A DNA stretch of 64,000 nucleotides from a virus, in the IMG/VR virus record IMGVR_UViG_3300009537_001827, positions 1 through 64,000 of that record; one strand, written 5' to 3'. Each line of letters opens with the position of its first letter. Position 1 is the first letter of the stretch. The notes under the pieces were generated by a model, which saw only the letters and a list, made by a program, of their open reading frames with translations, was not told where the DNA came from and did not search any database. This document shows, one piece after another, positions 1 through 47,121 of the stretch. Made by a program: the position numbers and the translations under genes.

Positions 1-1500
1 GTTGAGATTGAGCTTCTTCTCCGTGAGAGATTCCGTCGCCCTGCCTGCCGGAGTCTTGCGAACCTTGTCGAGGTACTTATGCGACTCGTGCCAGTAGGCG
101 TCCTTCAGCCTGCTCCACTCCTGCGTGTCAACACGAAGGCCGTGCCTCTCGAAGTCGTTGAAGGCAGTCGTGGCTTCGAGCAATTTTCGGAGGAGGAGCC
201 TCGTCCTCGTCCGGCCTTTCAACCGATCCCGGATGGGAGGCACGAGTCGATAGGTCGCGACGGCATCGGTCGCCCCGTACTTCGCGATCACGTCCAGAGG
301 CACCTTATCCAGCGTCCTCTGCGTCGAGGGATACTGGTCGAGGTACTCGTTGAGTTCGGAGTCCCACGCCCCGAATTGCAGGTGCTTCGATCCGAGAAAC
401 TTCAGGTCATGGGTCCCATCCTTACCATCGAGCAAGTAGCAGGCGAGCTTCGTGTCGAAGTGGATCTCCTTCGGCCAGACGTTGTACTTGGCCGTCGTGA
501 ACCGCACATCGAATTTTCCGTTGTGAGTGACGATCCTGCCCGCCTGAAAGAGCCGGAAGAGAAGCGACCGAATCGCCTCGTGGTTGTACCCTTCCATCCG
601 GTAGGGCTCGATCCCGGCGGGCTCGTAGCCCCGGTGTTCGAGCGCCACGAAGACTCCGTTCTTATAGTCCCGGGCGAAGCAGAGTCCGATGATGTAACTC
701 TCCGGGTGATAGGCGTTCAGCGCAATCTCGTGCTTCGGACCGCCTGTCTCCACGTCATAGGCGAGCCGGAGGATCTTCCCTGCCCGGGCCAGCTTGATCG
801 TCTCATCCGCCCACTCCTTGAAGCGGTCGAGGGTCGTGATCGTTTCGAGCTTGAGGAGTTCCTCCGGGTCCTTCGCACCGACCGCCTTCCGGTAAGCGCT
901 CCGAAGATCGCCGATCAGGTCCGACATCGCCGCCCGGTTACGGATCACGTAAGCGGGGTGCCACGTCGGGATCACGGTGTAGGACTTGCCTCGCACCTCC
1001 ACGTCTTTGAAAATTCGACCTCGACGCTGGGAGATTTTCCCCTCACCGAGGAAGAAGTTCGTGGCGGAGTTCCCGAGCGGGACGATGATGAGCGGCCTCG
1101 TCCTGTGGATCTCCCCCCTCAGGTATTGCGAGCAGACCTCGATCTCTTCGGTCGTGGGTGTACGGGTCGAATTTCCTGATCGAGGAACACACCTCACGAT
1201 GTTGGTGATGCGAATTTCTTCGGCGGGGATTCGAGCTTCTTCGAGAGCTTCGGCGAGAATCTGTCCTGCGGGTCCAACGAACGGTTGATTGGCTCTGTCT
1301 TCTTGATGACCGGGAGCCTCACCAACAAGCAGAATTTTCGGTCGTTTCTCCGCCCCTCTCCCGGGGACGCAGACGTGAGTCGCTCCCCTCCAGAGCCCGC
1401 ACTCCGAAGAGTAGTAACATCTCTTCTGCCTCAGCTTCCCGGTTTCCGGATCCGAGTAGGGCGGGAGGTTCGATTTCTTGTAGAGATAACGAGTCGTCAT
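1..1500 (-). CDS. Uracil-DNA glycosylase / DNA polymerase I fusion (3' end missing)
   Basis: The first 500 residues of a protein that runs off the left edge. Residues 1-200 are a family 4 uracil-DNA glycosylase: the motif GEAPGHQEDRANQPFVG starts at residue 60, four cysteines (28, 34, 104, 123) match the 4Fe-4S ligands, and TWHPAYV (179-185) is the catalytic HP loop. A 3'-5' exonuclease domain of DNA polymerase A follows, with DVET (249-252), a HNGKFD motif and the YGATD motif as exonuclease sites I-III. The polymerase domain itself should lie beyond the edge. Fusions of this kind are known in some large phages (SPO1-type polymerases). The ATG at 1500 starts the only reading frame carrying these motifs. 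It is probably the replicative polymerase, with uracil removal or sensing coupled to synthesis. Confidence 0.9.
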   Translation of the reverse strand, partial: MTTRYLYKKSNLPPYSDPETGKLRQKRCYYSSECGLWRGATHVCVPGRGAEKRPKILLVGEAPGHQEDRANQPFVGPAGQILAEALEEARIPAEEIRITNIVRCVPRSGNSTRTPTTEEIEVCSQYLRGEIHRTRPLIIVPLGNSATNFFLGEGKISQRRGRIFKDVEVRGKSYTVIPTWHPAYVIRNRAAMSDLIGDLRSAYRKAVGAKDPEELLKLETITTLDRFKEWADETIKLARAGKILRLAYDVETGGPKHEIALNAYHPESYIIGLCFARDYKNGVFVALEHRGYEPAGIEPYRMEGYNHEAIRSLLFRLFQAGRIVTHNGKFDVRFTTAKYNVWPKEIHFDTKLACYLLDGKDGTHDLKFLGSKHLQFGAWDSELNEYLDQYPSTQRTLDKVPLDVIAKYGATDAVATYRLVPPIRDRLKGRTRTRLLLRKLLEATTAFNDFERHGLRVDTQEWSRLKDAYWHESHKYLDKVRKTPAGRATESLTEKKLNLN

Positions 1501-2576: not shown

Positions 2577-2862
2577 CCTGCTCACCTCGCCTCCTGTCTG
2601 TTTTCCTTCGCCGGGGGAGTGGCGCGAGGATATCCTTTCGCTCCGTGAATCGTTCGAGCCACTGCGTCGTCTTCGCCTCGTCACAGTGGCACCTTCTCCG
2701 CTCAAGAGGGGTCACCGTTCGGGGAACGCTCTTCGGCGGGTAGCCACACCTTCGGCACATCTTCCACTTTCCACACGGGCACTTCTTGAGAGGCTCCCCG
2801 CATCTCAGGCAGAAACCCTCCTTACCCCGGTCCTTATCCTCAGCCCTGCGACCAGTCATCAC
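2566..2862 (-). CDS. Small zinc-ribbon-like protein
   Basis: 98 residues if GTG 2862 is used; ATG 2859 is nearly as likely. Both fall in the overlap with the stop of the HIRAN gene. Six cysteines lie in the pattern CLRCG ... CPCGKWKMCRRCG near residues 18-40, which fits one or two zinc sites. A basic C-terminal part (PLPRRRKTDRRRG) suggests nucleic-acid contact. No specific family recognised. Confidence 0.6.
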   Translation of the reverse strand: MMTGRRAEDKDRGKEGFCLRCGEPLKKCPCGKWKMCRRCGYPPKSVPRTVTPLERRRCHCDEAKTTQWLERFTERKDILAPLPRRRKTDRRRGEQDES

Positions 2863-3242
2863 TTCTGGCTCTCCAACATCGCCCGCGTGAGTTCTCTCGA
2901 CTCATCGTTACCGACGAAGAAGATGCCGAAGTGCTCTTTGTGTCCAACACCTCCGGCGATCACCGCCCACGCTGAACAAGGGCACCCACCTTCTTCCTCG
3001 ATCTCTTCGATCTCCTCGTTCTGCTCTTCGGCAGCTTCCCTCGACAGGAACCCGATCTGCTCCCCATCAGGCCCGAGAACTTGCACCGCGTTCGGGTCGT
3101 ACTCGTTCTCCGGGTCCCGCTTCAGGATCGCGAGGAACGGTTTCCTGCCAACCTGCTCGAACAGCTTGCGGATCACATCCTGTCGAAAGCTCTCACCGAC
3201 GACAGGGGGAATCTGCTGCCACAGAATGACCTGAGTCTCCAT
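2859..3242 (-). CDS. HIRAN domain protein
   Basis: 127 residues. Residues 13-72 match the HIRAN pattern: VVGESFRQD at the first strand, then LKRDPENEYDPNAVQVLGPD and GEQIGFLSREAAEE. HIRAN domains bind 3' DNA ends or stalled forks in eukaryotic HLTF and also occur alone in phages and bacteria. An acidic linker (about 78-86) and a GCPCSAW segment follow. It lies in an accessory block with Ku and the glycosylase-polymerase fusion, which fits a DNA-end or repair role, but that role is inferred from the family only. Confidence 0.75.
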   Translation of the reverse strand: METQVILWQQIPPVVGESFRQDVIRKLFEQVGRKPFLAILKRDPENEYDPNAVQVLGPDGEQIGFLSREAAEEQNEEIEEIEEEGGCPCSAWAVIAGGVGHKEHFGIFFVGNDESRELTRAMLESQK

Positions 3243-3250
3243 CTCATGCC

Positions 3251-3649
3251 CTAACCCTTCGTACAGGCGATCAGCCCTTCCTCCGAGGTCGTGACGCTCT
3301 GCTCCTCACCAACGCGAACTTCGCACCGGTAATCCACCGAGCTACTGGAGTAGGTGGCCGCAGCTTCGTATCCTGTCTCTGACGCACCTGTGATGCTGAT
3401 CGACACGGGGACACCTCCCACGCTGCTGTAAGTCACATCGAGCAACTCGGCCAGACTCGCGTACCGCAAATGCGTCGAGTAGAACGACTCCTGCTGAATC
3501 ATCAGGTTCTTAAGGTCCGATGTCAGCGAAGCCAGTATCGCCCGCTCCTTGTGGTTCCTCAAGCTCGGCAACGCGATGAGCGCCAGCAGTCCGATGATGA
3601 CGACCGCGATCAGAAGCTCGATCAGCGTGAACCCTCTCAGCTTCTTCAT
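3251..3649 (-). CDS. Type IV major-pilin-like prepilin
   Basis: 132 residues from the ATG at 3649, placed after GGAGGG. The start is a textbook class III signal: a short basic leader (MKKLRG), the cleavage site G/FTLIELL with Glu at +5, and a hydrophobic helix, AVVIIGLLALIALPSL. A prepilin peptidase would cut before Phe7, after which the helix packs into a pilus or pseudopilus. The globular part has two cysteines, near residues 111 and 129 (YRCEVR, IACTKG), that could form the C-terminal loop disulphide seen in many pilins. The length is normal for a small pilin. It is the most downstream member of a prepilin set reaching to 7964. No peptidase, assembly ATPase or secretin is in the window, so assembly would rely on host machinery. 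Confidence 0.9.
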   Translation of the reverse strand: MKKLRGFTLIELLIAVVIIGLLALIALPSLRNHKERAILASLTSDLKNLMIQQESFYSTHLRYASLAELLDVTYSSVGGVPVSISITGASETGYEAAATYSSSSVDYRCEVRVGEEQSVTTSEEGLIACTKG

Positions 3650-3661
3650 TCGGCCCTCCAA

Positions 3662-3994
3662 TTAACCTAGTGAGGCGGCGAGAAACTTCTCCCGAAGAGT
3701 TTTGAACTCTTCGGGTCCCGACAATACATTGAGGACAAGATCAAGTTCCTCCCTCGTCAGAGCCACCTGATAGCAGAACAGACTCACATCGAGGATCTCG
3801 ACCTTCAATCCGAGATGGGCAAACGCGTGGAAGTCCGTCTGTTCGATCCACAGGTCCCACTCCCCACCGTTCCACAGATTGTCGGCCACATCCTTCGCCC
3901 ACTTGAGGTCACTGTGAGTCGCCTGTCTGATCGCCTTGATCGCGTCGATCTTCCGCCCACAGATTCCCTTGGTAAGACGCACTGATCTCTTCAT
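3662..3994 (-). CDS. Protein with ribosomal L7/L12 C-terminal-like motif
   Basis: 110 residues from the ATG at 3994 after GGAGGG. The N-terminal half contains GRKIDAIKAIRQATHSDLKW followed by AKDVADN, close to the L7/L12 C-terminal pattern (K-I-x-V-I-K-x-I-R-x-x-T-x-x-x-L-K-x-A-K-x-x-V), the part that contacts translation factors. The rest is not similar to L7/L12, and the protein lacks its N-terminal dimer domain and hinge. It sits inside the prepilin block. Single domains of this type occur in some bacterial and phage proteins of unknown role. Confidence 0.6.
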   Translation of the reverse strand: MKRSVRLTKGICGRKIDAIKAIRQATHSDLKWAKDVADNLWNGGEWDLWIEQTDFHAFAHLGLKVEILDVSLFCYQVALTREELDLVLNVLSGPEEFKTLREKFLAASLG

Positions 3995-4053
3995 TCTACC
4001 CTCCAAAATGCCCAGAAACCGGCCAAATTCGCCGCCTGAGAGCGTTTCTATCC

Positions 4054-4248
4054 CTAGACGCCTTCCTGCCCGCCAGACGGGCTCTCAGGCCCTCCAGCGC
4101 GATTCCGCTGATCGAGGGTCTCCATCCTGAAAGCCAGCGCCAACACCATGCCCGCCACGGCCAGAAGCGGCTCCCAGAACAGCCACGACAGAAAGACCGC
4201 CAACCCCGCTGCGAAAACCCACACGCCCATCATGAATGTGAACCTCAT
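4054..4248 (-). CDS. Small two-helix membrane protein
   Basis: 64 residues from the ATG at 4248, preceded by GGAAGGAGCGAG; an earlier in-frame start would lack a ribosome site. Two hydrophobic stretches (MMGVWVFAAGLAVFLSWLFW and LLAVAGMVLALAF) make a hairpin in the membrane, followed by a polar tail of about 22 residues rich in Gly, Pro and Ser. It lies between the PilX-like gene and the L7/L12-like gene. A membrane partner of the pilins or a holin-like role are both possible; the sequence decides neither. Confidence 0.55.
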   Translation of the reverse strand: MRFTFMMGVWVFAAGLAVFLSWLFWEPLLAVAGMVLALAFRMETLDQRNRAGGPESPSGGQEGV

Positions 4249-4380
4249 CTCTCGCTCCTTCCCCTCCTGTAACGCCAACCCTTCCGAATTCGTAGCAGGA
4301 GCGGGCCAGCCGGTCTACACTGGCGCTGTCGAGGGCGACCGCGATGAGCCCTCCAGACTACACGCTCCTGCCACGCCCTC

Positions 4381-6141
4381 CTACCAGCCGGGCCGAAAAT
4401 TTAGCTGCCGGACATACCCCACGTTCGGAGTCGCCGGAGGCAACTTCGTCGGGTCCTCGAACATCGTGTCGAAGCCCCAATCCCGATCCGGCGGACTGTA
4501 GTACGTCCCGTTCCACGTCCCGGTCGCGATCCTCGAATCGAAGAGGCTCACCAGCGAGCCACGATATCGGAACGTCACGCTCGACCAGTTTTCGAGGAAC
4601 CGGGGGAAGTTCTCGATCCCGCCCGAGTACCAGTTGTTGTAGTACGAGTTCGACCCATCCGCCGCGCAATCCGCATCGTACCAGTCGCACGGAGTCGGGA
4701 CCATCCCCGACATAACCGCCGCGTTCACGGTCGTCAGCGATGCCGCGCTCCTGTAGCCCGACGAACCGCTCGCTCCCCACGACACGCATCCGAACGGTCC
4801 GGACACGCCATCCCACAGATTGCAGATGTGCCGGGCATCGACCCACGCGTTGCTCAGGAACGTCACCGCATCCGCGATGATCGCCGCAGGCTTCTTGTTC
4901 ACGGAGTTGAAGTCACCCCGGATGTAGATCGGCCTGTCGGTCGCTACCGTAATCGGTCGAGGAAGCTCCGCCGCGTTGTGCAGTCGGATCACCGGGTACA
5001 CGCCATCGCCACTCGGGTCCATCCCGCCAAGAACCTGAGGCACGATGAACTCGAAGTAGACGACATCGACTTCCGGATTCTCATCCATCAGCGTCTTTAG
5101 GTCGATGTCCATTACGTCCACATATCGACGCTCGCGCCCATCGTAGAACGCCTCCCAATCGTACAGGACCGCCTCCTCGCACTTCTTCGGCTTCGCGTTC
5201 GCCACCTCGCAGACCATCTTCGAGGCAAGCTCGCTGATATCCACGAAGACGTAGAGGTCCGCTTTCCAAGCGTACTTCACCCGACGAGCCCGCTCGCTGT
5301 CCGCGTCATCCTTCGGCGCAATCACCTCGTAAGGCAATACGCCATCCGGCAACGGAACCTTGAGCGAATCCACGTCGAACGCACCAGTCATCACCCGGCA
5401 GTCGAATCGGTCGCAACTCTTCGTCTTGAACGCCTCCGCACCCGGAGTGTCCCGACTGTCGAAGTCAAGCGCGATCTCACTCCCACCCGCATCGTTGATA
5501 TAGACCCCGTTGTTGACATCGTTGAAGTCCTTCCGGTTGTGAATCAACCGGTTCGGGGTCGTCAGGATGCTCCTGTACCAAGCGTTGTCGCTCGATAGAT
5601 ACAGGTTCCCGTTCGAGTGAACCCGACCAATGAACTCCATCGGCGGACCGTTCGTTGCTTCGAGGTCGCCCTCGAAGAAGACTCCAAACTGGAAGATGGG
5701 GATCGCCTGAGCCTTCGCTCCCAAATACACGGCATCCCGATTCCCCATCGCATCGGACGCCTCGGAGTACACGTCCACTTTCTGCGTAAGCGCATAGAGA
5801 CCCGCATACTCCCCATCGGTCAGCGTTTCGACCGTCACGCCACCGACCGGACGGACGGTGAACGAGTCGTAGTCGAAGACCTCGAACGCCGGATCGGTCG
5901 GAGGACGGATAGATGCCGCCTCAGCCGAATCGAGTGCCCCATCTTCGAGCGCCACCTCGATCTGCGCCAGAGCCGCTTCCGCTCCCGCTTCCGCCGCCAG
6001 AGCAACCCGATGCGCCTGCCTATCGAACGTCTGCGCCCGTGCCGACAGAATCGCTGCCTGCACAGCGAACACCATCAGCACAGACAACAACCCCAACGTC
6101 AGGATCGTCGCGACCAGTGCCAGCCCCTTCTCGTTCCTCAT
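4381..6141 (-). CDS. PilX-like minor prepilin with large extracellular domain
   Basis: 586 residues, overlapping the PilW-like gene by ATGA. The N-terminus, MRNEKGLALVATILTLGLLS, is a PilX-type start: a basic leader, Gly, then a hydrophobic helix lacking the Glu+5 of major pilins, as usual in the PilX/GspK group. A helical stretch rich in Ala and Glu follows, then a beta-rich region with FGVFFEGDLEA and GRVHSNGNLYL, seen in bacterial PilX-like proteins (DUF4900-type). Several cysteine pairs near the C-terminus (HICNLWD, GCVSW, PCDWYDADCAA) suggest disulphides outside the cytoplasm. In bacteria such proteins start pilus assembly at the tip and can carry adhesive domains. It is larger than typical PilX (about 200 residues). 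Confidence 0.8.
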   Translation of the reverse strand: MRNEKGLALVATILTLGLLSVLMVFAVQAAILSARAQTFDRQAHRVALAAEAGAEAALAQIEVALEDGALDSAEAASIRPPTDPAFEVFDYDSFTVRPVGGVTVETLTDGEYAGLYALTQKVDVYSEASDAMGNRDAVYLGAKAQAIPIFQFGVFFEGDLEATNGPPMEFIGRVHSNGNLYLSSDNAWYRSILTTPNRLIHNRKDFNDVNNGVYINDAGGSEIALDFDSRDTPGAEAFKTKSCDRFDCRVMTGAFDVDSLKVPLPDGVLPYEVIAPKDDADSERARRVKYAWKADLYVFVDISELASKMVCEVANAKPKKCEEAVLYDWEAFYDGRERRYVDVMDIDLKTLMDENPEVDVVYFEFIVPQVLGGMDPSGDGVYPVIRLHNAAELPRPITVATDRPIYIRGDFNSVNKKPAAIIADAVTFLSNAWVDARHICNLWDGVSGPFGCVSWGASGSSGYRSAASLTTVNAAVMSGMVPTPCDWYDADCAADGSNSYYNNWYSGGIENFPRFLENWSSVTFRYRGSLVSLFDSRIATGTWNGTYYSPPDRDWGFDTMFEDPTKLPPATPNVGYVRQLNFRPGW

Positions 6142-7046
6142 CGGTTCCTCGCATATCTCAGGTTACGGGGAGCCACGAACCACTCGAAGTCCCGAGCGAA
6201 TAGGCTCCCGTTGCTCACTCGCTGATCCGCCCTGTCGGCGGACAACCGGACGTTGATTCTCACGCCAATCACGTCATCGTAATCGTTGAAGACATCTGCA
6301 TCGTTCGGATTCGCAGCGGAAGCTTCTCTTCCATCCGCGAACACGAAGTTGACATCGAACGCCTGTACTCCAAACGCCACGATCTCTCCCGCAAGAGACC
6401 CGTCCGCGTTCAGCCTCTCTGCCCGCATCAGAGTCGAGTCCGATACGTAGTAGATGATGGGCTCGATCTCCTGCACGAACGTCTCGAACCGGTCAAGCAG
6501 CAGTCCGCCCGACAGACCCGCCGGATAACCGATTAGCGAATCCGCTGCCGTGAAGCTCAACTGTACGCTCCCCGCTGAATGCTGCACATCGCTGACGAGG
6601 ATCAGCCGTCGAGTCCCCGACACCTGCAATCGCGCCAGCGAGCCCGGCAGGATCTCGAATGTGCTGTCGCTCTTCAATAGATCGAGACACCGCGAGCCGC
6701 ACGTTCCTCCCGGAGACAACGGATTGTCGCTTCCACCCGGGGGCAGCAGATCGTAAGGCAACGCCGCAGCGGGACGATGCGGGATCTGCAAAATGACAAT
6801 CGTGTCGCCTCTCAGAGAGAGGACGCCGAAGACCGGAGTGCTCTCGATGCCAACACCCGCCCGCTGGAGGTCACGCGCCAAACTCACGTTGACGTATCTC
6901 GCGTTCCGGTAGACCTCATCACGGATCATCTGCGCCTCGACTATCCGAGTCTGGTTGATAGCGAACGCCACCGCACCCGACAGGACGACAAGCCCGACGA
7001 TCATCGCGATCAGGAGTTCGACCAAAGTGAATCCCTTGTTCTTCAT
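6138..7046 (-). CDS. PilW-like minor prepilin
   Basis: 302 residues from the ATG at 7046; the 13 codons before it lack a ribosome site. It begins MKNKGFTLVELLIAMIVGLV, a clear prepilin leader with cleavage between Gly and Phe and Glu at +5. The following part (NQTRIVEAQMIRDEVYRNAR) is the extended helix of PilW/GspJ-type proteins, and ARDLQRAGVGI is a PilW-family landmark. The C-terminal half is beta-rich. It is translationally coupled to the PilX-like gene downstream and separated by 13 bp from the PilV-like gene upstream, the usual fimT-pilV-pilW-pilX order of bacterial minor pilin operons. Confidence 0.85.
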   Translation of the reverse strand: MKNKGFTLVELLIAMIVGLVVLSGAVAFAINQTRIVEAQMIRDEVYRNARYVNVSLARDLQRAGVGIESTPVFGVLSLRGDTIVILQIPHRPAAALPYDLLPPGGSDNPLSPGGTCGSRCLDLLKSDSTFEILPGSLARLQVSGTRRLILVSDVQHSAGSVQLSFTAADSLIGYPAGLSGGLLLDRFETFVQEIEPIIYYVSDSTLMRAERLNADGSLAGEIVAFGVQAFDVNFVFADGREASAANPNDADVFNDYDDVIGVRINVRLSADRADQRVSNGSLFARDFEWFVAPRNLRYARNR

Positions 7047-7059
7047 GCACTCACCCCCT

Positions 7060-7476
7060 CTATGATGTCGATGAAGCGTAGACAAGACTCACGAAACTCG
7101 ACTGCCGTTCGCGGCCCCCCACGGAGTACGAGACACGCACGGTGACCCGATGGAGAAACTTCGCGTCGATCTCGTCGCCGTCCACGACACGCCTCGCCTG
7201 CTCCACGATCAGAGTCCGGACGAATGCGCCGCTCTCCGATTCATCACCCGACTCATCGACCCGAACCGGGGACTCGCTCACGAGAGTCCTAGGGTCCCGG
7301 GTCAGGATCTCTTCCATGTACCCACCGGCAATGACATCCGCCATCACCCGCAGATCCGTTCTGCTCTCCAACTGCTGCGCCCTGAGCAACGCCTGCGATA
7401 GGGCCAGCACTCCGAACCCCATCAGGACCATCGCCACGAGGACGGACAGTAGGGAGAAACCTTCTCGCCTTCTCAT
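7060..7476 (-). CDS. PilV-like minor prepilin
   Basis: 138 residues from the ATG at 7476, overlapping the upstream GspH/FimT-like gene by ATGA. It begins MRRREGFSLLSVLVAMVLMG, a prepilin leader with Gly/Phe cleavage. Position +5 is Leu and not the usual Glu, as in some minor pilins. It continues with FGVLALSQALLRAQQ, typical of PilV/GspI. In bacteria PilV joins PilW, PilX and FimU/FimT in the priming complex at the pilus tip. Its size and place in the gene order fit this assignment. Confidence 0.8.
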   Translation of the reverse strand: MRRREGFSLLSVLVAMVLMGFGVLALSQALLRAQQLESRTDLRVMADVIAGGYMEEILTRDPRTLVSESPVRVDESGDESESGAFVRTLIVEQARRVVDGDEIDAKFLHRVTVRVSYSVGGRERQSSFVSLVYASSTS

Positions 7477-7964
7477 CGCCAGCCCTCCCCTGTGAACGTC
7501 CACGCCTTGAACGACCCGGACCCAGCGACCGTGACCGCCGAATTCGCCCCGCCATTCCCCAGATAGACCACGCCTCTCGTGCCCCTAGGCACGGGCAGTC
7601 CCCGAGCGTCAAATTTGACCTCTGAGCCCTCGAACGTGACCGGGCCGCCTGCCGGATAGCCGGGGAGCGGAGAAACGCCGTCAGATGCGAATTCTGCCCC
7701 GTTCCCGAGGCTCATGACACTGACCAGACTGTCAGACAGGAACGTCGAAACCCTCCCATCCGAGCCGAACGTCACGCGGACCTCCTTCTTCCTCGACATC
7801 GCCAGCGAGCGAGCCGCTTCGAGACTCCGGACGAGGACCCTCGCCTCCCCCCTGAGCTTCGCCTGCGGGCTCATCCTCAGCTTCGGAATCGCAAGCGAGG
7901 AGATCACGCCGAACAGAACGACGACGATGACCATCTCGATCAGGGTGAATCCCTTCGTATTCAA
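7473..7964 (-). CDS. GspH/FimT-like minor prepilin, TTG start
   Basis: 163 residues. It appears to start at TTG 7964, seven bases after GGAGG. The leader is MNTKGFTLIEMVIVVVLFGV with Gly/Phe cleavage and Glu at +5. The segment ARVLVRSLEAARSLAMSRKK followed by EVRVTFGSDG is the GspH/FimT landmark (helix, then the first strand). The C-terminal part has the expected FDARGLP and YLGNGGANSAVTV strands. It is the first of the prepilin genes to be transcribed and probably sets the start of a pseudopilin operon that ends at 3251. Confidence 0.85.
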   Translation of the reverse strand: MNTKGFTLIEMVIVVVLFGVISSLAIPKLRMSPQAKLRGEARVLVRSLEAARSLAMSRKKEVRVTFGSDGRVSTFLSDSLVSVMSLGNGAEFASDGVSPLPGYPAGGPVTFEGSEVKFDARGLPVPRGTRGVVYLGNGGANSAVTVAGSGSFKAWTFTGEGWR

Positions 7965-8326: not shown

Positions 8327-9130
8327 TCACGCGGACGCGAGAGATGCCTTCAGCCTCTCGATCAGATCAGCCGTCTCCTGATCCTCGGCCTCCAACTTCG
8401 GCTCTTCGCCGCCGCTCTTCTGAGCCAGCACCGAGCGCAAACTCTTCGCGTACTCGCTCTCGTACCTGCTCGCATCGAACTCGTGGCGGTATTGCTCGAT
8501 CAGCATCGCCAGCAGCGTGACTTCATCCGTGTCAGCCACGTCCTGAAGGTCAATGCACTCCGTCTCGATGATCTCGCCGTACTCCATCACCTGCGCCACC
8601 AGCGTCCGGCCCTTCTCTCCAGAGTAAGGACGCAGGACAAGGATGTAATCCTTGCCCCGCGACACCCACGAGGCGAGAGCCACGACATCCATCTCGATCA
8701 TCTTCTGCACCAACGCCGACCACGCGAAGAGTCCGTTCCTCGCGCTCTTCTTCGGCGCGTCGAGATGCATCCAGTACGCCTGATCCGACAGGTAGATCGG
8801 ATCGAGTTCGTCGGACCTCACGAACTGCTCAATCACCAGCTTCTTCTCGTCGAGCCGAGCGCCCTTGAACTCCTCCTGAGAGAGAACGAGGTCGCCCTCC
8901 CCGTTGGCCTTCCCCTCCTCACCGTTCTCGAAAACGCGAACGAGATCGCCGTAGCTAACCTGATTCTGACACTCCGGGCAGAACCACGGACGCTCGATCT
9001 TCACGCCGCATCCCCTGTGCTCCATGTGCGAAGCCGGAGCCTCTTCGACATTCCGATGGACCTTCTCCATCCGGACCGGGCATCCGACGAGCCCGAACTC
9101 TAGCTGTCCCTTCCAAACGGTATGCGCCAC
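8327..9130 (-). CDS. ku: Ku DNA-end-binding protein
   Basis: 267 residues from the GTG at 9130, seven bases after GGAGG. The start VAHTVWKGQLEFGLVGCPVR is the conserved opening of bacterial Ku (A-x-x-x-W-K-G-x-L-x-F-G-L-V-x-x-P-V). A short zinc-ligand-like segment (CGVKIERPWFCPECQ) follows, then a Ku core with LDEKKLVIEQFV and DELDPIYLS. Bacterial Ku rings load on double-strand ends and recruit LigD; phage Ku proteins exist (mycobacteriophages Omega and Corndog) and can recruit host LigD for genome circularisation. No LigD-like ligase is visible here, so a host ligase would be needed. Length is normal for the family. Confidence 0.88.
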   Translation of the reverse strand: MAHTVWKGQLEFGLVGCPVRMEKVHRNVEEAPASHMEHRGCGVKIERPWFCPECQNQVSYGDLVRVFENGEEGKANGEGDLVLSQEEFKGARLDEKKLVIEQFVRSDELDPIYLSDQAYWMHLDAPKKSARNGLFAWSALVQKMIEMDVVALASWVSRGKDYILVLRPYSGEKGRTLVAQVMEYGEIIETECIDLQDVADTDEVTLLAMLIEQYRHEFDASRYESEYAKSLRSVLAQKSGGEEPKLEAEDQETADLIERLKASLASA

Positions 9131-9336
9131 TGTGAACCTCCAAGTTGAAACCGACTTTCTCGCGACTCTACAGAGCAATCGCCGTGCCACGAGAAATTCG
9201 GCTCTGTCGCTTGATTTTCTGCTGGCGGGGAACCACCAATTCGGTCAATCTGTTCAGCGGGCCAGAACTTTTTACCGACCGAACTGAGCGGGGCTGGACA
9301 CTGGTCCTGCTCACAGTCTCTTATCTGGCCTATGGC
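9131..9336. promoter_or_regulatory. 206 bp gap upstream of Ku
   Basis: One of the larger gaps in the left third. It contains the ribosome site for Ku and a TTGACC hexamer on the minus strand without a convincing -10 box at the right distance. A 9-codon ORF starts right after the lipoprotein stop and is probably meaningless. The gap may hold a promoter for the Ku-prepilin segment; nothing firmer can be said. Confidence 0.3.
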
Positions 9337-12531: not shown

Positions 12532-12612
12532 CGGAGCAGAAGGGAATCGAACCCTCCTGCCCACCGGACCCGAACGGATGCTCTTGGTTACCCCGTCACG
12601 GGCCACTGCTCC
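12532..12612 (-). tRNA. tRNA-like gene, possible tRNA-Pro(CGG) with irregular D arm
   Basis: Read on the minus strand, the ends pair as a perfect 7 bp acceptor stem (GGAGCAG / CTGCTCC). The T arm is canonical: stem GAGGG / CCCTT around loop TTCGATT. An arm ATCCG-TTCGGGT-CCGGT gives U33, anticodon CGG and G37 as in tRNA-Pro, with one mismatch in its stem. The D arm is not canonical: GCCC pairs only partly with GAGC across a long loop, and an alternative CCCG-TGA-CGGG hairpin sits there. Length is 81 nt without CCA. Either a divergent tRNA or a decaying copy. Confidence 0.5.
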
Positions 12613-13597: not shown

Positions 13598-13628
13598 TCC
13601 TTTCCTTTCGTCAGCATCATTTGCGGGA

Positions 13629-13670
13629 GAGGCAGCCGGGGAATCGAACCCCGGCAACTCCACGCTGCCT
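13629..13670 (-). ncRNA. tRNA-like minihelix (acceptor plus T arm only)
   Basis: On the minus strand AGGCAGC (13664-13670) pairs perfectly with GCTGCCT (13630-13636). Inside, CGGGG-TTCGATT-CCCCG is a perfect T arm with the invariant TTC-G-A loop. Only 10 nt separate the 5' acceptor strand from the T arm, so the D and anticodon arms are absent. The element starts inside the stop codon region of the small gene upstream. It has the shape of a tRNA top half, a substrate for RNase P, CCA-adding enzyme or EF-Tu. No encoded CCA follows. Confidence 0.6.
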
Positions 13671-13848
13671 ACGCTGGGTAAATATAATCCAGCGGAATCT
13701 CCAACCGAGCAGCCGCTTCCTCGCGAGAGAGATTGCAGGAGTCCATGACCAGTTCGACCAGAGCGCGGTCGTACTCGGGATTCTCCTGATCTTCGCTCTT
13801 GAGGTTCTGAGCGGCCTCGATAACGACCGCCTTGGAATACTCGTTCAT
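13669..13848 (-). CDS. Small helical protein, possible helix-turn-helix
   Basis: 59 residues with ATG 13848 after GGGAGGGACG. It reads MNEYSKAVVIEAAQNLKSED near the start and ends with LSREEAAARLEIPLDYIYPA, a pattern like a C-terminal helix-turn-helix (L-x-x-E-x-A-x-x-x-x-I-P-x-x-x-I). It overlaps the tRNA-like minihelix at its stop codon. Two copies of a 16 bp repeat lie about 100 bp upstream, so this may be a small regulator next to its own operator; that is inference. Confidence 0.5.
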   Translation of the reverse strand: MNEYSKAVVIEAAQNLKSEDQENPEYDRALVELVMDSCNLSREEAAARLEIPLDYIYPA

Positions 13849-13992: not shown

Positions 13993-14955
13993 TCAAACCA
14001 GCATCCGGATGACCCGCTGATGCCAGTTGAACTCCGGAGCATGTCGAACGAGTCCCCGGAAGAGATCCCGGGGAACACTGTCAGGATCGGCCTCTTCGGC
14101 CTCTCCGGTATCTACGCTGACAGGACTCCAATCAACGACCCGAACGTCGCTATCCCCGCCCAACAGTCCAGCGAGCATCATCGCCTCGCTGCTCGCATTA
14201 GAGTCAAACGCGATGACGAATTCCTTTGGTCGAAGGGAGCGAAGAAGCTTTACCTGTTCTGCCGCCACGAGCTTTCCGTAAGTTGCGACCGCCGGGGTGC
14301 CTGTCGCCTGCCGAGCAGCCATCGCACTAAACACGCCTTCGCAAATTACTACGCAGGAAGCTCCTTTGGCCTGATCGTAACCGAAAAGAGCGAAGCGTCT
14401 CGACACACCTTTGGGATTCAAGTACTTCGGTTCCTCGTTGATGTAGGTCCGTGACACCCAAAAGTCGATCAGTTCGTCACGGTAGGAGGGGATCACGAGG
14501 CGATAGCGGTCTGGCTGCTCGACAAGGCGATACTCTCGAATCTCGGACGGTCCATAACCTCTCTTCTTCAGGTAACGAGCACCGGGAGAACCCGGAGCGA
14601 TCTTCACGACATCATCAGGAAGGGAAACCTCCTGCTTGAGTTCGAGCGATGGCTGGCGGGCGTCATTACTCAAAGCGCTCACGACCTCTTTGTACCAGTC
14701 CTTCGAGAGAGCGACCAGTTCATCATCATCGATGAGCTTCGAGATGTCTCCCCTCGCCCCGCAGCGATAACAGAAGAAGACACCTTTCCGCACGTTGACG
14801 GAACAGGTGGGATCCGTTCTCCCTTTACGTTGACGATGACCGCAGAATGGACAGGAGACCCGAACCTCATCCCCAATCCCCTGCACGTCATAACGATGAC
14901 GAAGAGCCCTAAGCCTGCTTTTTGTTCTTGCGCCGCTGCTTGGCTTTCTTCGCAT
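13993..14955 (-). CDS. DNA primase (zinc ribbon plus TOPRIM)
   Basis: 320 residues if ATG 14955 is used. A CHC2-like zinc ribbon (SCPFCGHRQ, then FFCYRCGARGD; Cys 35, 38, 61, 64) is followed by a DnaG-like core with DRYRLVIPSYRDELIDFWVS and YLNPKGVSRR, then a TOPRIM segment with CVVICEGVFSAMAA and AFDSNASS. It is shorter than full DnaG and lacks an obvious helicase-binding tail, as usual in phage primases. The start is uncertain: ATG 14955 overlaps the helicase by 47 bp, while GTG 14886 avoids the overlap but begins just before the zinc ribbon. The gene directly follows the DnaB-type helicase. Confidence 0.8.
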   Translation of the reverse strand: MRRKPSSGARTKSRLRALRHRYDVQGIGDEVRVSCPFCGHRQRKGRTDPTCSVNVRKGVFFCYRCGARGDISKLIDDDELVALSKDWYKEVVSALSNDARQPSLELKQEVSLPDDVVKIAPGSPGARYLKKRGYGPSEIREYRLVEQPDRYRLVIPSYRDELIDFWVSRTYINEEPKYLNPKGVSRRFALFGYDQAKGASCVVICEGVFSAMAARQATGTPAVATYGKLVAAEQVKLLRSLRPKEFVIAFDSNASSEAMMLAGLLGGDSDVRVVDWSPVSVDTGEAEEADPDSVPRDLFRGLVRHAPEFNWHQRVIRMLV

Positions 14956-16366
14956 CGAAGTACGATCCCATCGAGTCATCGTCAGAAACCTTCTCTTCCT
15001 CGCTGCGTTTCGCCTTCCGCTTCTCCGACATCTCCTTCTCTCGAATGAACGACCGCTTGTAGTCAATCTCGCAGTGGATGTACCGGGTGTCCATCCCTCT
15101 CCGCTGTCCGGTCACGAACAGGGTCAGGAGCCCGTCGATCTTCTCCTGAATCGTCTGGTTGAGACTGACCGAGATGTCGCAATCAGCCATCTTCCTCCAC
15201 GACTCCGAAGCATCCGATTGACGAGTGGTATCCTTGTCCTCGGCCTGACGACCCGCCTGACTCGCGGTCCAAACCCCAGCATTGAAGTCCGCCCCGAGAG
15301 CGGTAAGCTTTTCCATCGCCGTACCACCCTCGACGTAGAGATTCGATGGATCTCGCTTCGCCATCCGATCCATGAAGTCAATGATGATAAGATCAGGTTT
15401 GACCTCATGAACGGACTGAAGGCGGGAGAGATGACTCCGAATCCACTCGACACCGACTTGGCCCGGACGCTCATAGACGATCCACGGACTCCCGTGACCG
15501 TACCACTGATTGCATCGTTTCTCAAACTTTCTGATCGCCTGCGGAGTCCTCAGGTCCAGTATTTGCTCATCAGACATCCCGGTCGCCCGGGAGGAATACT
15601 TCATGATCACGTCCGCCTTGCGAAGCTCGAAACTGTAATGGATGACCTTGAATCCCATCCGACTGGCCCATGCTCCGATGTTCACAAGAACGGTACTCTT
15701 ACCACGCTTCGGAATTCCAAAGACGATCCCGACTTCTCCCCGGCCAATCCCTCCGCGCATCATCCGGTCAAGTGATGGGAAACCCGTTGGGATCACTTCC
15801 CCTTTCGCGTAGGCTTTCTTGATGTACTTCGGGAGGGTCCCGGGATTGTCTCCCATCGAAGTCCCGAGGTCGTGAACACCGTTCAGTCCGATCCTGAGAG
15901 ATCGTTCTAACGTCGTCCGGATCTCCGCGAACCCGGAGGCGTTTGCCTTTCCTTTCTCGATGGCGTAAAGCATGTCCGCCGCCTTGCGGACCCCGCTCTT
16001 GAGCGCCTGCATCTGAGCGAACTCCAACGCTCGATTGCGAACGTACTCTTCGTCGGCGGGAGGACGGGTGTACGCGGCAGTGGCCTTCTTGAGCAGGAGA
16101 CGTGAATCCTGCTGATCGACGCCGTATTGCCGCGCCCACCGTTCTAACTCTAGCTGAAGAACCGGAAGCTCCGGAGGACGACCTTTGCGGTCGAGATACT
16201 GAAGGGCAATCTGTGAGATAGTAGAGAGGTGCGGATCCTCGAAGAAGATAGGATCGAGGCTGTCTCGATAGTCGATCCCGAAGGAAGGGTCCCTGAGAAC
16301 TAGACTAAGGATCGACTGCTGAAACTGTTCTCCAAAGTCGTACTTGGTCGTCACATTTTGCCCCAT
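14909..16366 (-). CDS. DnaB-type replicative helicase
   Basis: 485 residues from the ATG at 16366 after AGGG; longer starts would run into the upstream gene. A helical N-terminal part precedes the RecA core: PTGFPSLDRMMRGGIGRGE, Walker A GIPKRGKST (217-225), Walker B PDLIIIDFMD (324-333) and the GVWTASQAGR motif. The C-terminal 50 residues are Lys-rich. The family forms hexameric rings that unwind the fork 5' to 3'; here it would pair with the phage primase and polymerase. Coupling to the primase by overlap supports this. Confidence 0.85.
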   Translation of the reverse strand: MGQNVTTKYDFGEQFQQSILSLVLRDPSFGIDYRDSLDPIFFEDPHLSTISQIALQYLDRKGRPPELPVLQLELERWARQYGVDQQDSRLLLKKATAAYTRPPADEEYVRNRALEFAQMQALKSGVRKAADMLYAIEKGKANASGFAEIRTTLERSLRIGLNGVHDLGTSMGDNPGTLPKYIKKAYAKGEVIPTGFPSLDRMMRGGIGRGEVGIVFGIPKRGKSTVLVNIGAWASRMGFKVIHYSFELRKADVIMKYSSRATGMSDEQILDLRTPQAIRKFEKRCNQWYGHGSPWIVYERPGQVGVEWIRSHLSRLQSVHEVKPDLIIIDFMDRMAKRDPSNLYVEGGTAMEKLTALGADFNAGVWTASQAGRQAEDKDTTRQSDASESWRKMADCDISVSLNQTIQEKIDGLLTLFVTGQRRGMDTRYIHCEIDYKRSFIREKEMSEKRKAKRSEEEKVSDDDSMGSYFDAKKAKQRRKNKKQA

Positions 16367-16397
16367 CGCCCTAAGGAAGGAATGAATAGAAGTTAAT

Positions 16398-17972
16398 CTA
16401 ACTAGCCGCGCCTTCCTTGCCAAGCCTGACCAAAGCAGGGCAATCCCCTAGTACCAAAGGCTTGTCGAGGAAGCGGTCAATCTCTGCTACCCCCTCCGAG
16501 ATGTTGAACCGGTGCCGTTTATACCAGTTGCGCCTCTGAACCGAGTGACGCTTCAAGACTCGATGAAACCTGTCCTCGAAGTCAAACACGAGCACTACGT
16601 TCTCTCCTTCCTTTCGGCGCAGACCGCGACCGATTCGCTGAATCGTTTTGATCGGGGACTTCCCTCCCGCCAGAATCACGAGGGCCGTGATAGCGGGGAG
16701 ATCGACTCCCTCATCCATAACCGGGCTAGCGATCCTCACCCATCGGTCTTCCTGTTCGAGGAAGGAACGAGTCTGGTCCCAATCCTCGAACCGCTCGACC
16801 ACCGAATCGGTGTTCATGTGCCGAACCGCATCGCCACCCTTCAGAAACTCAACAGTGACACCTCTCCCGTGTAGCGTCTTCATCAACGAATCGCCGTGCT
16901 CAATCCGCTGCACGACCACGAGGACTTTGTGGCCCTGTTCATATAGCTGTTGAGCGATTTGCAGCGCCTTCTCATTTCGCTCGTCGTGTTCAACGATCCC
17001 GAAGCGATAGATGCGATGCCAATCGCTCGACCATGCGAACTGACTCGCGTGAGGATTGGACTTGATTGTCACCATCGCCACGTAGGGATCCGCCAGATAG
17101 CCCCTCTCCCGAAGGAAGAAGGATGGGATCCAAACGACTCGTTCACCAGTCAGGCCCAACAAGATGATGTCTTCATAGAACTCGAATCCGTCTCCCCGGA
17201 AAGGCGTCCCGGACATTCCGAATCGGTACTGCGCCCGCGAGAGCCTGCCTGAAAGGGTCCACGTCTCGGCGCTCAGGTGATGAACCTCGTCCCAGAAGAT
17301 CACTGGTCGGTCGAGCAACTTGTTCGCCCGGTCTTTCTTGATGAGCCGTACGAGGCTCTGGATCGTACAAACCACGATGTCTCCGTGGAGATTCTTCCGA
17401 CCACCGCCGAGTTGCCCAACCGTGAAACCTGCATCTCGAAATGTCTCGACCGCCTGAGTCACAATCTTGGTCGATCCGACGATGTAGAGCGCAGGAAGTC
17501 CAATTCTCTTCATGATGGCCGCAGCACACACGGTCTTGCCGGAACCGGTTGCCATCTCAATCACGCCACGCATCTTTCGGATGGCCTTCTCAACCGATGC
17601 TTCCTGATAGTCGTACAAACGGAACTTACCGAGATCGGTCACGCCCTCGATGCGATGAGGCCAGAGGAGACTGAGATCACCGTCGATGAGCTTCCGAAGA
17701 TCCGAGCCGGAGATGACACCTCCGTCTTCCTGAGCGACAACAAACGGGTGATCGGCTTTCTGAAGTGTCGAGAGAACGTGGGGCAGGAGCCCGGTCAGGA
17801 ACGTGTCGTCCCACATGAGCCTCCAGTAACCATCCCACCGACCGGACTGATAATCCTTCGACTTGTGACGGTGCAGACTCAGGAATGTGAGGGCCTTCTC
17901 GACAGCCTCGACATCCTTCGGACCCTCGTGCGAGAAGTGAGTGAGCGTGAACTGCGGACGGAGAGTAACCAC
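16398..17972 (-). CDS. Superfamily 2 DNA helicase (UvsW-like)
   Basis: 524 residues from a GTG at 17972. The motor motifs are complete: Q-like LYDYQEASVEKA, Walker A ATGSGKT (141-147), DEVHH (228-232), SGTPFRG (254-260), and late motifs VMDEGVDLP and QRIGRGLRR. The N-terminal 110 residues (FLSLHRHKSKDYQSGRWDGY) resemble the accessory domain of T4 UvsW and related phage helicases, which remodel forks and R-loops and control origin use. An endonuclease domain is absent, so it is not a restriction subunit. It stands directly upstream of the replicative helicase. Confidence 0.82.
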   Translation of the reverse strand: MVTLRPQFTLTHFSHEGPKDVEAVEKALTFLSLHRHKSKDYQSGRWDGYWRLMWDDTFLTGLLPHVLSTLQKADHPFVVAQEDGGVISGSDLRKLIDGDLSLLWPHRIEGVTDLGKFRLYDYQEASVEKAIRKMRGVIEMATGSGKTVCAAAIMKRIGLPALYIVGSTKIVTQAVETFRDAGFTVGQLGGGRKNLHGDIVVCTIQSLVRLIKKDRANKLLDRPVIFWDEVHHLSAETWTLSGRLSRAQYRFGMSGTPFRGDGFEFYEDIILLGLTGERVVWIPSFFLRERGYLADPYVAMVTIKSNPHASQFAWSSDWHRIYRFGIVEHDERNEKALQIAQQLYEQGHKVLVVVQRIEHGDSLMKTLHGRGVTVEFLKGGDAVRHMNTDSVVERFEDWDQTRSFLEQEDRWVRIASPVMDEGVDLPAITALVILAGGKSPIKTIQRIGRGLRRKEGENVVLVFDFEDRFHRVLKRHSVQRRNWYKRHRFNISEGVAEIDRFLDKPLVLGDCPALVRLGKEGAAS

Positions 17973-45258: not shown

Positions 45259-47121
45259 TCAGACCGTCGATTCGGTGATGAGGATACCGTCCCGCGTCTG
45301 CTGAAGGTTGACCTCGATCAACTCCGCGATCTCGACGAAGCGGAGCGTGATATCCACCACAAGCTTCCGCTGATTGACCACGGAGATCGTATTGTTCTCC
45401 TCGTCGCACTTAATGGCCACGTTGTTATCGTAACCGCCCCGAGTCTCGAACATCCCGGCGTTGTAGAGGGTCTGGAAGAACGCGCTGAGCACATCCCTCG
45501 CCCTCGTCCGGGTCGTATCGTTGTTTGGCTCCTGTTCGAGGAAGCCGAGGTTGTTAAGCAGCGAGTCTCGAATAAAGTTCAGCGACCGTCGGATGTGGAC
45601 GCTGTAGTTCGGGCTCGCGCTCGAAGTCGTGCGCGATGTCCGGATCACGAAGCCACGACCCGGGACGAACATGACCGCATTGATCCCGATGTCGTGAACG
45701 AGCCGTTCAAGCTGCGTGTCGCTGAGCTTCCGGAACTCGATCTCCAGAAGATCCCGGAGAGTGATATCGAGCCCGGCAGGGGCGATGTGCGGGTAGAGAC
45801 TCTTCGTCAACATCCTGCGAATGTACCCCGCACCGATAACGTGACCGACATTCGGAATCCAGACACGGCCGCCAACCTCGTTATCGACCTGAACCCATCC
45901 CCGGTAACCCGAAGCGAAAGACTTCTGTTTCACGATGAGCGGCGTCCACACATCCTCCAGAGTATCGAGCGTCAGCCCAAAATCGGTGGACCAGACCGCC
46001 ACGCAATCCGCTCGGGAAGAGCAGTACTCCTCCAGAACTTTCGCGAAATCCACGCTTGTCAGGTCGGCAGTCGTGAGCATCTGAACATCCTCGCCATCGA
46101 AGGCGTAGACACCCGTTCCCGCCGACTCTGTTCCCGTGAACTCGGAGAGCCCCGGGTCGGTCCCGTCCGCTCCGCCCAGCAACGGTTCGAGCGTGACCGG
46201 ATTCGGCATCCCGTTATCCGGGTCAGTGTTCTGGACCCAGATGTAGTCCGACCCAAGATCCGGAGAGTTGACAAAGGCCACGAAGTCCGACACGTTGTCG
46301 AACGTCTCGCGGACCTGATTCTCACCGTTCACAACCTCGACGATCTCGATGTCCCGGTTGTACTCCGCCCCCGCAGATGGAGTGACGTTGAGTCGGATGT
46401 TGTTCCCCCACTCACCCGGATCGGGTCGCCCTCTCTGACCGCCCTGAACGATAGGATCGACTGCTGCCGCACGCGGCGCGGTGACGAAGAGCGTCACCAC
46501 CACCGTCTCGGTGATATTGTCGGGAAGCTGGATCCCCGCGTAGTTCACTGTGAAGAGCAACGAAGCGGCGAGCGCCACGGGAACCGCGTTCACGGTCAGG
46601 GTTACAAGACTCGTCGGAGTGGCAAGCACCCCGCGATTGACCGCATCGCACAACTCCGCAGAAGAGAGCACGTTATCGTAGACCTCGGTCCTCGTCGGAG
46701 CACCGGCATCCTTGAAGGTGAACTTCTGCCCGATGTTCGTTCCCGTCCCGATGGTCACGGTGTAGTTGTTCGGGTTCCCAATGCTCCCGGTCGCCTCGAA
46801 CTGCGTGTCATCCGAAACCAGAATGGCTTCGGCTTCGTCTGAGCCCGCGCCCACCACACGACTCACGAACAATCTCGCACCGAAGGGAGCCGCGTTGCGG
46901 AACAGTCCTCGTATCGCCAGAGCCCCGTAACGTCCCTTGCTCGGCTGAGGGTCGCCAAAGCGGAGCCTTGCCTCCGAATCGGACGCGACCTCGACGGGTG
47001 TGTTCACGGGTCCGCGTTTGCTCTCAACCAGTATGCCTGTGTTCGTGATATCTGCGGGGATGATCGCAGGCCCGGTCGCAGCAGGACGCTCAATGACCCG
47101 AACGCCAATCGGTTGACTCAC
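45259..47121 (-). CDS. Tail sheath protein
   Basis: 620 residues. It starts IGVRVIERPAATGPAIIPAD and NTGILVESKRGPVNTPVEVA, the sheath opening, and shows SDSEARLRFGDPQPSKGRYG, the later GNRRVWV-like GRVWIPNVGHVIGAGYI and the C-terminal FINTVRDSLL-like SLNFIRDSLLNNLGFLEQEP followed by helices and a last strand. These parts form the interlocked outer cylinder that contracts. The length is normal for large myoviruses. Confidence 0.9.
   Translation of the reverse strand: MSQPIGVRVIERPAATGPAIIPADITNTGILVESKRGPVNTPVEVASDSEARLRFGDPQPSKGRYGALAIRGLFRNAAPFGARLFVSRVVGAGSDEAEAILVSDDTQFEATGSIGNPNNYTVTIGTGTNIGQKFTFKDAGAPTRTEVYDNVLSSAELCDAVNRGVLATPTSLVTLTVNAVPVALAASLLFTVNYAGIQLPDNITETVVVTLFVTAPRAAAVDPIVQGGQRGRPDPGEWGNNIRLNVTPSAGAEYNRDIEIVEVVNGENQVRETFDNVSDFVAFVNSPDLGSDYIWVQNTDPDNGMPNPVTLEPLLGGADGTDPGLSEFTGTESAGTGVYAFDGEDVQMLTTADLTSVDFAKVLEEYCSSRADCVAVWSTDFGLTLDTLEDVWTPLIVKQKSFASGYRGWVQVDNEVGGRVWIPNVGHVIGAGYIRRMLTKSLYPHIAPAGLDITLRDLLEIEFRKLSDTQLERLVHDIGINAVMFVPGRGFVIRTSRTTSSASPNYSVHIRRSLNFIRDSLLNNLGFLEQEPNNDTTRTRARDVLSAFFQTLYNAGMFETRGGYDNNVAIKCDEENNTISVVNQRKLVVDITLRFVEIAELIEVNLQQTRDGILITESTV

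Follow-up and report, generated by a model that had tools for sequence, protein, structure and literature searches.

The stretch of viral DNA analysed here (the window) comprises bases 1-64000 of the IMG/VR record IMGVR_UViG_3300009537_001827, which is 66,319 bases long, incomplete and classed as linear. At 3251-7964 it carries a cassette of minor pilin genes together with a major pilin gene. On balance, and with no great confidence, we favour the view that the phage possesses one shaft pilin and a complete, probably working start/cap set for type IVa pili, which come from Gemmatimonadota or close relatives, and that the machine of the host builds phage-tipped pili with them. That phages block or exploit type IV pili is established, as is the presence of single pilin-like genes in their genomes. 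The components are already known; what is new is their combination and the phage carrier.

Cassette genes and their Gemmatimonadota relatives

All genes of the cassette lie on the minus strand with intact frames. Their order, FimT/GspH, PilV, PilW, PilX and a major pilin, co-directional with the phage genes, is the one proposed in an earlier examination of the letters and open reading frames (the sequence-only reading). Of the five class III prepilin leaders claimed there, four were recovered by the hidden Markov model (HMM) comparison that it had suggested: the N_methyl leader (PF07963) scored over the curated Pfam cut-off in PilA, PilW, PilV and FimT, the last of which also contains the GspH domain. 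Matches to PilV, GspH and PilA families of NCBIfam were below the cut-off. The fifth, PilX-like protein has no match in Pfam or PHROG and only a sub-cut-off match to HpsA in NCBIfam. Its leader, MRNEKG followed by LALVA, has no Glu at position 5, as in a PilX/GspK-type member.

The predicted coupling by short overlaps holds for FimT/PilV and PilW/PilX (4 nucleotides (nt) each) and fails for PilV and PilW, which are separated by 13 nt. The overlapping genes and the same order in Gemmatimonadota point to a joint operon in conserved order; no shared upstream motif or promoter was found. Between PilX and the major pilin the expected small hydrophobic protein is encoded, while the likeness of its 110-residue neighbour to ribosomal protein L7/L12 shrinks to 29 residues and stays below the cut-off. 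The sequence separating PilX from the small hydrophobic gene (4279-4385, minus strand) can form a long stem that encloses two hairpins (-50.7 kcal/mol, z -1.86); no Rfam match was found for it.

The suggested search of host genomes revealed the same cluster in Gemmatimonadota. When about 85,000 species genomes of bacteria and archaea were scanned with PilX, 14 loci were obtained, of which 12 are titled Gemmatimonadota; identity was mostly 40-60%, and FimT, PilV and PilW stand beside PilX in most of the 14. At the thresholds used, PilX was present in 25 of the 200 genomes drawn from the phylum and in 40 of the 394 drawn from the class, and in several Gemmatimonadota genomes it occurs two or three times, with tandem copies in some cases (L014). 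The phage PilX is 48-54% identical to a ten-sequence Gemmatimonadota set and PilW is 47-51% identical to its Gemmatimonadota counterparts over the full length; the best identities reach 42% for FimT and 40% for PilV. The family matches of PilV and PilW are weak, and it is the homologues from the same operon in Gemmatimonadota that strongly suggest what these two proteins are.

The bacterial loci show two gene orders, PilX-FimT-PilV-PilW (21 loci) and, including forms truncated at a locus end, FimT-PilV-PilW-PilX. The phylogenetic tree of PilX placed the phage, on a long branch (0.82 changes per column), as sister to a five-genome clade with moderate support (90/85), and this clade uses the gene order of the phage. 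The chromosomal cassettes of Gemmatimonadota possess the same four genes, in one clade in the same order, with PilX and PilW about 50% identical. They differ in that the phage set is phage-borne, belongs to a replicon without assembly genes and adjoins a major pilin that the bacteria keep in another locus. Full-length homologues of this PilA (39-45% identity) lie 17-30 kb from PilB in six of seven Gemmatimonadota genomes, and in genome G002 the secretin and prepilin peptidase are found in the same region. By its full-length homology to pilins of type IVa loci, PilA is assigned as a type IVa major pilin. Since its homologues are located near PilB and apart from the minor-pilin cassette, the phage has joined genes of two bacterial loci. 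The cassette was apparently taken from Gemmatimonadota or close relatives, and it points to Gemmatimonadota as the likely host.

Two peculiarities of the bacterial loci were noted. In a contig of a Gemmatimonadota metagenome-assembled genome (MAG), a truncated FimT is followed, with a 4-nt overlap, by a frame resembling a terminase large subunit (L013:8388-10168), which may reflect a phage insertion or a misjoined contig. The peptide KSKPRVTVGRKATGR occurs in two Gemmatimonadota genomes, in frames situated a short way upstream of PilX (L013:6199-6579, L020:5473-5841), and is possibly a common non-coding or regulatory repeat.

The ComZ-like tip pilin

The label PilX given to the largest protein needs correction: in the predicted structure, this 586-residue protein is a large beta-solenoid tip pilin with the architecture of ComZ. 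The model was built with 44 homologues and has a mean predicted local distance difference test score (pLDDT) of 86.9 and a predicted template modelling score (pTM) of 0.85; an earlier ten-sequence model with a pLDDT of 49 was discarded. A pilin helix (residues 5-67) is followed by three strands of the pilin sheet (90-148), and the last strand (573-585) is separated from them by a large beta-solenoid insert. In a Foldseek search of the PDB, ComZ was the sole match at E<=0.001 (E 1.2e-9, probability 1.0), and a viral fold library yielded no match to the model. In ComZ of Thermus thermophilus, a pilin that binds DNA and for which a position at the pilus tip has been argued, the solenoid is inserted between the penultimate and last strand (PMC6561018); the solenoid of the PilX model is placed in the same way. 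The protein is called ComZ-like rather than ComZ because sequence searches do not list ComZ.

The competence pilin locus of Thermus has the same order of gene kinds, with pilA1, pilA2, pilA3, comZ and pilA4 of strain HB27 bearing the consecutive locus tags TT_C0854-0858 (PMC8578077), and likewise encodes a large tip pilin whose sheet is interrupted by a solenoid. The phage cassette differs by two extra small genes before PilA and by a PilX for which no sequence link to ComZ was found.

Genomic context and occurrence in other elements

The genes of the cassette and its surroundings are listed in the table. By the PHROG matches of its tail sheath and baseplate wedge, the record is assigned to a myovirus (Caudoviricetes). 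As judged from the neighbouring genes, the cassette is situated inside the phage replication region, with the polymerase on one side and the primase and helicases on the other, which agrees with the earlier statement that a whole priming set and a major pilin are contained in a phage genome; endolysin, baseplate wedge and tail sheath genes are farther away from it than the primase and helicases. All genes chosen by coding score in the window are on one strand, and the cassette is spaced by 8 nt from the HIRAN-domain gene. A Ku-like DNA end-binding gene adjoins the cassette within this region.

Table. Genes of the pilin cassette and of its phage surroundings, in window coordinates
Feature	Position	Strand	Basis
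Fusion of uracil-DNA glycosylase (UDG) and DNA polymerase, 3' part beyond the record (flank)	1..1500	-	phrog_17 E 1.8e-40; UDG PF03167 E 1.6e-30; SPO1 gp31 over 89% of query
HIRAN-domain gene, directly after the cassette (flank)	2859..3242	-	PF08797 over cut-off
PilA-like major pilin, 132 amino acids (aa)	3251..3649	-	PF07963 35.2 bits; PDB matches to geopilin and Thermus PilA4 chains
110-aa protein, weak ribosomal L7/L12 C-terminal-like stretch	3662..3994	-	PF00542 E 0.0028, below cut-off; phrog_26927 E 1.5e-5
Small hydrophobic protein, 64 aa	4054..4248	-	Open frame containing hydrophobic stretches; no family match above cut-off
Large PilX/ComZ-like tip pilin, 586 aa	4381..6141	-	Gemmatimonadota homology, model, Foldseek match to ComZ
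PilW-like minor pilin, 302 aa	6138..7046	-	PF07963 over cut-off
PilV-like minor pilin, 138 aa	7060..7476	-	PF07963 over cut-off; TIGR02523 E 7.2e-8, below cut-off
FimT/GspH-like minor pilin, 163 aa, TTG start, GGAGGTGG just upstream	7473..7964	-	PF07963 28.6 bits and PF12019 25.8 bits, both over cut-off
Ku-like gene, before the cassette (flank)	8327..9190	-	phrog_4873 E 7.1e-30; PF02735 E 1.7e-23
Primase, DnaB-like helicase, second helicase (flank, upstream in transcription order)	13993..17972	-	phrog_47, phrog_19, phrog_16
Tail sheath, marks a contractile tail	45259..47121	-	phrog_23 E 1.2e-31

Because phage replication genes border both sides, the cassette is not a host flank. A prophage boundary was also ruled out, as no related prophage was found: among Gemmatimonadota genomes, core genes related to those of the phage amounted to distant sheath matches and matches to the glycosylase domain alone. 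The tRNA-Ile predicted by ARAGORN (anticodon TAT, 13626-13716, minus strand) was considered as an attachment site and is unsupported, since the genes on either side are phage genes. Both this tRNA and a tRNA-like stretch at 12532-12612 (minus strand; a weak Rfam tRNA match of 23.4 bits, below the gathering score) look degenerate or unusual, and the Rfam scan of the window gave no match above the gathering score.

Further features of the phage genome include a short stretch, helical in appearance and of the type IEELVKRIERGEDPKTVVE, close to the start of several phage proteins (53461-53781, 56924-57148, 61235-61726, 63088-63747), which resembles a repeated small domain. Just past the right end of the window, a DNA methyltransferase-like gene (phrog_359 E 1.9e-38; L011:8410-9643) is accompanied by a frame in which, by eye, a likeness to homing endonucleases can be seen.

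In agreement with the sequence-only reading, genes of an assembly ATPase (PilB), an A24 prepilin peptidase and a secretin, and also of ComEC, were not found in the 66-kb record, which is incomplete. Without the ATPase, peptidase and secretin the record does not represent a complete type IV pilus system, so the products of the cassette must use the host machine, if they work at all. Bacteria bearing the cassette do possess such a machine: PilB was detected in 16/16 genomes tested, peptidase and secretin in 6/6 each and ComEC in 5/6, the genome where ComEC was not found being G167, a cassette-bearing MAG of the sister clade.

The proposed search of related phages failed to find a second phage with the cluster. 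There were no matches to PilX, PilW or PilA among INPHARED phages and none to PilX or PilW among IMG/VR contigs, with single sequences or with alignments of PilX and PilW, although records very close to this one may be outside both searches. A baseplate search for sister phages gave nothing, and a tail sheath search gave six distant fragments, all without prepilins. In a comparison sample of 50 viral records of at least 20 kb, chosen for having one prepilin leader, 45 had one leader, four had two and one had four; by these counts, the cassette is more than chance would give. Viral record G258 (L135, 43 kb) was rejected as a second set: its four leader proteins (95-331 aa) do not show the FimT-PilV-PilW-PilX pattern but form a cluster of leader proteins that resemble one another. 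In the open literature, outside which most subscription papers lie, no phage was found described as having a complete set of minor pilins; almost nothing was found on Gemmatimonadota phages and pili.

Plasmids of Thermus and Deinococcus encode PilX proteins that are 26-30% identical to that of the phage over most of the length of the phage protein, two of them in the same four-gene order. These FimT-PilV-PilW-PilX cassettes, with no assembly genes nearby, belong to pTHEOS01 of Thermus oshimai (L214:2949-6524) and a Deinococcus actinosclerus plasmid (L215:2886-6407). They differ from the phage cassette in being plasmid-borne, in having no adjacent PilA that could be seen and in coming from another bacterial phylum. 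It seems, by these plasmid cassettes, that the tip module travels on other mobile elements too, and since it is also present on plasmids, the four-gene tip cassette may be an exchangeable module of mobile elements.

Proposed mechanism and alternative explanations

If the cassette works, its genes would be expressed during infection and the host prepilin peptidase would cleave the phage leaders. FimT, PilV, PilW and PilX would then form a priming complex with the ComZ-like solenoid outermost, and the host PilB/PilC/PilQ machine would lengthen the pilus with host and phage PilA. Because each pilus starts from one tip complex, excess phage minor pilins could take over initiation, and infected cells would make pili with a phage-specified tip, perhaps more often. 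In Vibrio cholerae, the ratio of minor to major pilins sets the frequency of pilus formation, and more minor pilins lead to higher dynamics (PMC13249403); therefore, a burst of phage minor pilins could seize initiation.

Of the positions conserved in hosts, the phage keeps 86/88 in PilX and 9/9 in PilW, which speaks for a working set. The codon usage of the cassette is nearer to that of phage genes (distance 0.105-0.125) than to that of any of 13 bacterial PilX genes (0.152-0.217), yet outside the within-phage null (95% 0.091). Several observations weigh against the favoured view. Fewer conserved positions are kept in PilV (12/14), FimT (18/26) and PilA (32/43), possibly through partial decay or divergence of these sequences. 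The PilW tree did not resolve the placement of the phage, and the cassette is known from one assembled metagenomic record. As to the tip pilin, the solenoid region is net acidic (39 K+R, 61 D+E), neither phmmer nor profile searches of PDB chains linked PilX with ComZ by sequence, and the match to ComZ has a low global template modelling score (TM-score 0.25), which we read as an architecture in common with a different domain arrangement.

Of the roles suggested earlier, replacement of the tip complex agrees best with the data, and the ComZ-like fold makes this role more specific; the benefit to the phage may lie in a new pilus function, the exclusion of other phages, DNA uptake or movement. 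Most likely, although this is the least certain step of the proposal, the purpose is to alter what the pili of an infected cell do (capturing DNA, surfaces or neighbours) and not to block them. Gain of function is preferred because the known blockers are single proteins and the phage set is complete. We suggest only tentatively that the virus makes infected cells assemble a pilus of viral specification, in which a ComZ-like tip is combined with the shaft pilin of the virus, and that this pilus serves to catch DNA, surfaces or neighbours that are not infected. A phage would then provide the entire tip of a filament of its host instead of blocking that filament.

Superinfection exclusion, where the phage tip or pilin replaces or poisons that of the host and pilus-tropic phages can neither bind nor be pulled in, appears unlikely. 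Several Pseudomonas phages do switch off type IV pili for this purpose, and D3112 Gp05, Aqs1 and Pf4 proteins are, like the products considered here, phage products acting on host pili; however, they are single proteins inhibiting PilB or PilC (PMC11436027), whereas the present phage encodes pilus subunits, and a full set with a shaft pilin exceeds what blocking needs. The divergence of PilX loops 296-380 and 437-470 from the sister clade (29% and 16% identity) is expected of an altered tip surface, but raised pilus dynamics may heighten vulnerability to phages (PMC13249403).

DNA capture, a special case of the favoured reading in which the ComZ-like tip would raise the uptake of outside DNA for nucleotides or for repair or recombination with the neighbouring Ku, seems more doubtful still. 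The predicted fold, the DNA binding of ComZ (PMC6561018), the ComEC genes of most cassette-bearing genomes and the position beside Ku in the replication region are consistent with it; the acidic solenoid and the failure to find ComEC in the sister-clade MAG speak against it.

Passive cargo, that is, bacterial DNA acquired by chance and without function for the phage, is improbable. FimT and PilA do count among the most poorly conserved sequences in their alignments and one record only bears the cassette, but the frames are all intact and coupled, PilX has kept its conserved positions despite the long branch, codon usage is largely phage-like and PilA derives from another bacterial locus. A bacterial fragment joined into the phage contig during assembly, a concern raised by the sequence-only reading and by the single metagenomic record, is very improbable: the phage genes on both flanks, by their sequence context, largely answer it, as two joins would be required between replication genes on one strand, one of them leaving an 8-nt gap, and the codon usage is nearer the phage than bacterial PilX genes. 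Least credible is the incorporation of the prepilins in the virion, modelled on Pseudomonas phage F10 and its relatives (PHROG 3433), which share a class III leader in a phage genome and have one prepilin-like gene, in F10 between tail genes, with no priming set; the present cassette lies in the replication region far from baseplate and sheath genes, and pilins are membrane proteins cut by the host peptidase.

The presence, in the replication region of a phage, of a full priming set together with a shaft pilin and a ComZ-like tip suggests that phages can redefine the function of the host pilus during infection. It raises the questions of whether tip cassettes are exchangeable among chromosomes, plasmids and phages, and of what a virus gains from a working pilus.

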